Source: Clostridia bacterium (GTDB lineage Bacteria > Bacillota_A > Clostridia > Christensenellales > Aristaeellaceae). From it: 7,383 bases of DNA. A program made the translations under genes and the position numbers. Location of the stretch: positions 1 to 7,383 of the forward strand of contig JAFXMP010000340.1 in the NCBI GenBank assembly GCA_017530275.1, read 5' to 3'. Shown piece by piece: positions 531 to 6,511 of the stretch. A model generated the notes under the pieces. That model made no database searches, was not told the origin of the DNA, and saw nothing but the letters and a program-made list of their open reading frames with translations. Within the stretch, counting starts at the first letter, position 1. Every line of letters starts with the position of its first letter.

Positions 531-857
531 CCTGCTTCATATGGGGAATGATGACGGGAAACATCGCGTGAAGCAGGACTGAAAAGCCACTCGATAATGC
601 AAAGGAATGAATGACAATGCCCAAGGGAAGGAGCGCACGATGAAAGAGCCATAGGAGCAAAGCGGAAGGAAAAGTGATCTGCGATGGTTCTATGGTGACA
701 CACAAGTGATTCACGAGTGAAGATAGCAGCACAACCCGGCGAGCCATGATCCTGAGGTAACCAATCCCCGAATAACAGACTGGTCATTGCCGAGTAGCGC
801 GCTTTTATGGCTCTTTCATTGTGCGCTCATTTTCCTTTTGACAAATGGGCACTACAT
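531..857 (+). ncRNA. Putative structured RNA or long structured leader, class not recognised
   Basis: No protein gene is convincing between 493 and 978, but the + strand folds strongly when paired by eye. Bases 631-658 pair with 801-828 over 28 consecutive positions, including G.U at 639/820, 654/805 and 655/804. After one mismatch (630/829) pairing continues at 625-629/830-834, then across an asymmetric loop at 618-623/846-851. Inside, 684-690 pairs with 741-747 and 676-679 with 748-751 across a 4-nt bulge. Upstream, 531-540 pairs with 568-577 (10 pairs, one U.G). The imperfections become A.C mismatches on the minus strand, so the RNA would be read from +. It could be a free ncRNA or the 5' leader of the hydrolase mRNA. 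I could not match it to RNase P, tmRNA, 6S or a group II intron domain V. The ends given are only those of the visible pairing. Confidence 0.4.
631..828. repeat. Inverted repeat, 28-nt arms (631-658 and 801-828) around a 142-bp centre
   Basis: At DNA level the outer 23 bases of the arms (631-653 and 806-828) are inverted copies with one difference (G639 against T820). The inner five positions add two more G/T differences. The repeat could be read as terminal repeats of a MITE-like element or as an invertible segment, but I see no target-site duplication next to the arms, no transposase or recombinase in the window, and no clear promoter in the 142-bp centre. An RNA stem explains the pattern of differences better. 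Confidence 0.75.
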
Positions 858-4065: not shown

Positions 4066-4433
4066 ATGCTTATGATGCAGACAGAACAAAAAATCATCAA
4101 AATCTGCACCGGCGGCGGCACGGCGGCGGATGACCCCACCGCCACGGAAGCCGGGAAAACGGCGGAATGGCTCCGGGAAAACGGCGTCGATCCCGCCCGC
4201 ATCCTGGCGGAGGATCAGTCCATTACCACGGCGCAGAACGCCATCTTCACCTTTGACCTGCTGGAAGAGCACTGGCCCCAGGTGACCCGGCTCGCGATCA
4301 TCTCCAGCGATTATCACATCGCTACCGGCGCGCTGATCGAATTGTCCGGGGATGCGGAAACGGCGTTGTAATCTATTATGAAACCTATGATATCCACGAG
4401 CTTCCGCCGCTGCACGGGGAAGGAAAGGAGTGA
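4066..4433 (+). pseudogene. YdcF/DUF218-family protein, broken remnant
   Basis: The readable part matches the middle of a DUF218 (YdcF/SanA-like) domain: IICTGGG-like strand and loop (KICTGGG), a conserved acidic/Thr segment TATEAG, ENGVDPARILAEDQS, TAQNA, and LAIISSDYHIATG, the family's terminal 'iiTs.yH..Ra' strand. About 40-100 N-terminal residues expected before CTGGG are absent; only MLMMQTEQKI precedes it. After SGDAETAL the frame stops at TAA 4369-4371, yet the frame one base off continues with protein-like VVIYYETYDIHELPPL and ends at TGA 4431-4433. That stop lies just upstream of the next start, as a real gene end would. A one-base loss near 4366 would explain this. The stretch between YHIATG and ALIELSGD also looks shorter than in relatives, suggesting an internal deletion. 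Family is fairly sure; the detailed lesion is inferred. Confidence 0.65.
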
Positions 4434-5955: not shown

Positions 5956-6511
5956 ATGAACTTCAAGGTGAATAATCTGATATACGCGGCAGGGGCGGAT
6001 ATGGTGAATACGCACAGGATCGCGGTAACGCTCAAGGAACCGGTGCAGCCGCAGAGCCTGGAAAAAGCGCTTGCCAAAGCCGCCGTCCGATTCCCCTATT
6101 TTTCGGTAAGGCTGAAGCGGCGGGGGGAAGAATACGTGCTCGAGCCGAACACGCTTCCGTTTGTCCTGTCCCCGGAAGGAAGAACGGTGACGCTTGGAAC
6201 GGCGGAAAGCCGTCCTGGACGGGATCGGGCAAAACACCTATGAGGTCAGTTACACCGGCCGCGTGCCCTGGAGCGGCCTGGATCGGTACATGGAGAATGT
6301 GGTTCCCTATCTTGATATGACGCTGAGCGGCGGGATCTCTGCGGAGATCTTCTCCGTTGGCGAAGTCTTCAGCGTCAATATCATGCAGCGCAATAACGAC
6401 AGCCGGTACGCGGATGCTTTTTGCGAGTTGCTCCGGGATAACGGGATTCAATATACCGCGGAAAAACCGGAGCGTTTTCGTCTGTGCGGTTTTCAGCTTC
6501 CGGATACATGA
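5956..6511 (+). pseudogene. Condensation/alcohol acyltransferase-like protein, internally deleted and frameshifted
   Basis: Two frames carry the two ends of one protein. The first, from ATG 5956 (GGAG at 5942-5945, 18 bases after preA), reads about 80 residues such as AGADMVNTHRIAVTLKEPV and AAVRFPYFSVRLKR, the N-terminal strand-helix-strand of the condensation/acyltransferase superfamily. Near 6195-6205 sense passes to another frame, with VLDGIGQNTYEVSYTGRVPW, PYLDMTLSGGI and MQRNNDSRY, ending at TGA 6509-6511, which looks like the family's C-terminus. A full-length relative has roughly 400 residues; only about 185 remain. The middle, which would carry the HxxxDG catalytic motif, is absent. 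As it stands the first frame ends at 6243, giving a 95-residue stub, so the gene is dead. Its intact role may have been acyl transfer to a small alcohol or amine; this is inference. Confidence 0.7.

Follow-up and report, generated by a model that had tools for sequence, protein, structure and literature searches.

The region from about position 488 to 862 of the window (the whole 7,383-nucleotide stretch of DNA that was analyzed) is very probably the 3′ part of an IS1111-group, IS110-family insertion sequence that carries a bridge RNA (seekRNA) gene. The region is a remnant, not a complete member, of the IS1111 group of the IS110 family, and the striking long RNA fold within it is explained as the guide RNA of an RNA-guided transposon. 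This kind of RNA was already described in 2024; the window thus holds a relic of a known kind, not a new RNA class, and the impression of an unknown class given by a sequence-only reading of the same DNA was wrong, the RNA being the bridge RNA/seekRNA of a truncated IS1111-type element. At the level of sequence, the identity of the element, the covariation of its stem, the correspondence of guides and flanks across relatives and the absence of the left part are all established. The features, numbered on the window, are:

488-571, + strand: 3′ end of an IS110-family transposase gene, 27 codons plus stop (from translation, NF033542, identity to L013 and BLAST to L010/L011)
572-861, + strand: non-coding right end of an IS1111-type element, with the bridge RNA/seekRNA gene (from identity to L013, and profile and covariance-model matches)
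631-658, + strand: 5′ strand of the 28-bp closing stem (from pairing and covariation)
639-820, + strand: bridge RNA/seekRNA region (from the covariance-model match; the stem reaches further out)
684-690, + strand: right-target guide, which in relatives is complementary to top-strand DNA on the right side of the insertion point
716-725, + strand: left-target guide region, in relatives in the same sense as the left flank and the first left-end bases
772-778, + strand: putative donor guide, a copy of the element's right end (the same letters stand at 856-862) that changes together with that end from subgroup to subgroup
801-828, + strand: 3′ strand of the 28-bp closing stem (from pairing and covariation)
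838-843, + strand: TTGACA near the right end, a putative −35 box (letters read directly, role suggested by analogy)
847-856, + strand: right subterminal inverted repeat (from repeat comparison; its left partner is missing from the window)
863-976, no strand assigned: DNA between the right end of the element and the start region of the hydrolase gene, its first bases being the element's right flank

The first lead came from BLAST, which aligned positions 508-571 with the 3′ end of a gene that is annotated as an IS110-family transposase and lies on Butyrivibrio proteoclasticus pCY186, and 497-577 with a human faecal contig carrying an open IS110-type transposase frame. The 27-residue piece encoded in the window matches positions 318-341 of the 343 of the NCBIfam profile NF033542 (IS110 family RNA-guided transposase) with an E value of 5.7e-4 and 19.1 bits, the cut-off for the whole protein being 140, and is 91% identical over 23 residues to the transposase of a relative, L013. 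The earlier claim that no protein gene lies in the 486-bp gap upstream of the hydrolase gene does not hold, since the gap contains these last 27 codons. L013, the best of 16 genomes with a DNA match among 300 genomes of the family to which the L001 genome (discussed below) belongs, is 86% identical to the window over 496-861 at the DNA level and has the layout of an intact element, i.e. a left subterminal repeat, a 368-residue transposase with both PF01548 and PF02371 (the DEDD_Tnp_IS110 and Transposase_20 domains), a right non-coding region and a right subterminal repeat; its transposase scores 222 bits against NF033542 (cut-off 140). Of such a protein only the last 27 residues survive in the window, and about 93% of the transposase, the left end and the left repeat are missing. 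DNA homology to L013 begins at 496, and the remnant joins the regulator gene somewhere between about 486 and 496.

A transposase search over 391 genomes of the class and a scaffold-pattern search over 381 genomes each recovered only the L013-bearing genome, G114 (the former at E 1e-60). Phages searched with the L013 right end gave nothing at E 0.01, viral contigs searched with an arm sequence gave no match, and plasmids searched with the L010 non-coding region returned L010 itself and one short Vibrio match. Besides the strong IS110 match, residues 189-299 of the L013 transposase weakly resemble the NCBIfam model for TIGR-Tas endonuclease (E 8.9e-5, 22.5 bits, cut-off 100).

The long non-coding region that follows the transposase stop codon at 572-861 is a trait of the IS1111 group. 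The right subterminal repeat stands at 847-856, and a search upstream in the window for the left repeat and the left-end motif found neither, leaving a repeat at one end only; in the intact elements L013, L010 and L022, which served as controls, the repeats are present at both ends with no mismatches. PMC11187229 reports a promoter formed by joined ends and, by analogy, the TTGACA near the right end might act as a −35 box that would meet a left-end −10 only in the circular form.

The helix between 631-658 and 801-828, as the sequence-only reading had it, comprises 28 uninterrupted pairs, 25 of them Watson-Crick and three G-U (639/820, 654/805 and 655/804). It is extended outward by seven pairs (624-630/830-836), of which only five had been claimed, and by a further six (618-623/846-851) that had been counted correctly. 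The bulged hairpin reported inside the helix is present, but with 6+4 pairs (737-742/787-792 and 743-746/781-784) in the minimum-energy fold, not 7+4, and the region 737-792 is laid out differently in the consensus fold of relatives. The predicted structure is strong: 493-978 folds with a minimum free energy of −151.8 (z −3.9), matched by none of 100 shuffles, and 616-862 with −97.9 (z −7.5), matched by none of 200. The minus strand folds nearly as well as the plus strand (z −3.6). The structured RNA is encoded on the + strand, as had been proposed, because the transposase remnant and the guide order are on that strand; the original argument, that all non-Watson-Crick pairs are G-U on the + strand, is true as an observation but weak as evidence, the two-sided chance being 1/4 for three departures.

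The separate 10-pair hairpin at 531-577, once counted with the RNA, does fold, but lies mostly within the 3′ end of the transposase frame and has no counterpart at the corresponding position of L013, L014 and L010, the three relatives folded; it was rejected as a part of the RNA. In line with the earlier failure to match the structure to a class, Rfam gives no match to the window at the gathering threshold, a lax threshold yielding two sub-threshold matches with E values of 1.2 and 1.6. A promoter and terminator scan of 400-1100 gave one promoter-like site (980-1009), with 0.7 expected, and no terminator.

Covariation at the main stem in homologues, which the proposal of an RNA had implied, is strong. 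A profile built from 12 non-coding regions, the window included, returned 51 rows in 50 sources, with many copies appearing twice. In the consensus fold of 13 sequences, 29 of the 49 pairs have at least one sequence changed on both sides with pairing kept. When the main helix of the window is counted alone, 17 of its 23 pairs have changes on both sides, a value equaled by none of 500 shuffles, and 93.9% of its cells are paired, compared with 39-46% when partners are slid by 1-3 columns, all of these values being somewhat favored in that the structure was derived from the same alignment as the covariation count. Because of this circularity, nine distant relatives, with the window, L013 and L014 excluded, were used to train a covariance model, and a search of 12 sources with it recovers L014, L013 and the window (639-820, + strand, 47.8 bits, E 3e-10). 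The conserved, covarying structure characteristic of a bridge RNA/seekRNA is therefore present, and the 28-bp helix is its closing stem. Among the matches listed in a scan with a 15-base pattern, only L206 passed the RNA profile, and a longer pattern gave no match.

Three segments inside the stem we read, from their correspondence with flanks and element ends, as the probable target and donor guides of a bridge RNA or seekRNA. At 16 loci drawn from the 51 profile rows (L069, L077b, L206 and L041 being read separately), the reverse complement of the right guide, i.e. the seven bases before a conserved TATG-type motif, agrees with the element's own right flank at 71 of 96 positions, with the guides and flanks of L014/L069 and of L077a/L077b being similar and hence not fully independent. 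The permutation mean is 26.3, with none of 100,000 permutations reaching 71/96, and the own right flank ranks first at 12 of the 16 loci. Not counted were repeat retrievals of one copy, copies at contig edges in which the guide or right end is lacking (L011, L015, L017, L026, L030, L032, L040, L045, L048, L057, L058, L071, L073 and L074) and short or decayed copies with no clear guide (L016, L024, L025, L029 and L034). The guide register and the L206 cut were first picked by eye; a strict L206 cut gives 67/96, again reached by none of 100,000. When gap-free columns from 13 elements are scanned against the right flank with no preset register, the same guide scores highest (z 7.9; 2,006 tests); against the left flank of seven elements the top score falls on the second segment in the same sense (z 4.6; 2,739 tests), with the third segment, which repeats the element's right end, scoring weaker (z 3.5-3.7); these z values are approximate, being based on 300 permutations per position.

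The correspondence with target flanks, top-strand match first, is thus found for the family; on the right side the window alone is weak. Its 684-690 pairs with 862-866 through five pairs, one of them G-U, and a run of this kind is equaled at 100 of 7,376 window positions; its own left flank is lost. By Watson-Crick pairing, poor right-guide fits are seen for L013 (2/6) and for the window, L077b and L081 (3/6 each). Comparison of the window with L013 reveals that both guide segments differ within otherwise identical surroundings, which fits a re-aimed element. As side observations, G114 holds not only the intact L013 but also L029, a right-end fragment of the same subfamily, whose right flank (TACCA) by eye suits the L013 guide better than does L013's own flank, and the right flanks of L041 and L015 place these elements just before terminator-like hairpins.

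The IS1111 seekRNA elements described in PMC11187229 (ISEc11, ISPa11 and ISKpn4) likewise carry an extended non-coding stretch after the transposase gene and have subterminal inverted repeats (here seen in the intact relatives), and of their two target-matching segments the one for the top strand comes 5′ of the one for the bottom strand, the order also found in this family. The RNA of ISEc11 is reported to co-purify with its transposase. Unlike those elements, the window copy has neither the left end nor most of the transposase, and its RNA region plus stem, about 180-235 nt as derived from sequence, is longer than both the peak seekRNAs (82-96 nt) and the 154-nt long form of ISEc11 given there. 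The bridge RNA of IS621, of the IS110 group, is similarly a guide RNA from a non-coding end with target- and donor-matching segments, according to PMC11208160, which places the IS1111 guide RNA in the right end, in agreement with the window; the L013 transposase matches IS621 in sequence only partially (E 6.8e-7, residues 199-295). Another close parallel is L010 (B. proteoclasticus pCY186, BPR_RS18445), where an RNA region of this type comes after an annotated IS110 family transposase and subterminal repeats flank the element; unlike the window, L010 is complete, and its guides and repeat sequence differ from those of the window.

By analogy with these systems, the transposase of an intact element would bind the RNA, which would be transcribed from the element's right end and closed by the 28-bp helix. 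One guide would pair with DNA just right of the insertion point and the second would match the left side, with the further segment matching the element's own end, such that the RNA would select both target and donor. A narrow literature search, not such as to prove absence, found no work on non-autonomous IS1111/IS110 elements or on noncoding RNA of Lachnospiraceae IS110 elements. The gain here is a covariance-supported model, together with relatives having readable guide-flank matches, for an IS1111 subgroup without an Rfam match in the window. The results also carry a caution, in that orphan right ends of the IS110 family can mimic new classes of structured RNA in intergenic gaps.

The insertion can be viewed against L001, where the hydrolase gene (91% identical) and the preceding regulator gene (78% identical) overlap by two bases with no insert. 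At the same point the window has about 490 bp, made up of the element remnant to 862 and then 114 bp; this empty site is the only one seen, and it lacks 863-976 as well. Among nine hydrolase loci, a match to the window's regulator lies upstream only in L001, with L005 having a distant match (27%) downstream of the hydrolase, and L003 and L008 offering little upstream sequence (266 and 715 bases, respectively). The 114 bp are open in the hydrolase frame (ORF 787-1587); they gave a single, unconvincing 19-base match in 200 genomes and, in plasmids, a match of about 28 bases (E 0.3) in four plasmids. The loss of the left part was probably fairly recent, and the truncated locus is presumably unable to move by itself; the most that its well-preserved RNA part could do is work in trans alongside a related transposase.

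That an orphan bridge RNA is still at work here, loading a related transposase in trans and so directing recombination or competing with intact elements, seems improbable to us. In favor of this reading, its stem and scaffold are intact and the two guides account for some of the few differences from L013 within the core, but no promoter-like site above chance was found. Other right ends lacking a transposase do exist: of 21 places with the non-coding region, 10 are preceded by a transposase of full or nearly full length, three (the window, L014 and L019, the last with only 656 bp available) keep a 3′ piece and eight show none in the 1.3-2.2 kb available, a ratio biased by the selection of these places through their RNA; for the same reason, abundance does not prove selection. 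It is similarly doubtful that the locus owes its retention to a guide RNA directing or titrating the RNA-guided recombinase that intact relatives would supply in the same cell. Were the orphan RNA functional, it would represent a stand-alone target-selecting RNA acting in trans.

A host cis-regulatory or stand-alone RNA tied to the hydrolase gene would account for an RNA directly upstream of that gene and on the same strand, but is very unlikely, given that the RNA is absent upstream of the 91% identical hydrolase of L001, that the covariance model is above chance in none of the nine hydrolase loci (its only match in L001-L009 scores 9.5 bits, E 1) and that the relatives of the RNA follow IS110 transposases.

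Right-end or RNA remnants with no full transposase upstream were noted at L014, L016, L024, L025, L029, L034, L069, L077 (second copy) and L206. A left end was sought in nine relics, a set leaving out L034 and L019; five have no copy of the repeat, and the other four have one isolated copy with two mismatches and no left-end motif. A MITE-like non-autonomous element moved in trans, with the helix arms as its terminal repeats, would suit the long inverted repeat (arms of 31 nt) and the lack of a full transposase in the gap, but is rejected on this search as highly implausible, there being no left-end repeat in the window, nor convincingly in eight further relics searched, and the arms lying inside a larger element and covarying as pairs across relatives. 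The arms do therefore belong to a transposable element, as the sequence-only reading had allowed, but as an RNA stem and not as subterminal repeats; only the outermost six-pair extension (618-623/846-851) runs into the right subterminal repeat (847-856).

Elsewhere in the window, three places hold genes that look short or frame-broken: 2005-2544 has a GNAT-like piece that runs into a metallophosphoesterase frame, 4066-4371 a short DUF218 frame, and 5956-6511 two adjoining frames around 6200.
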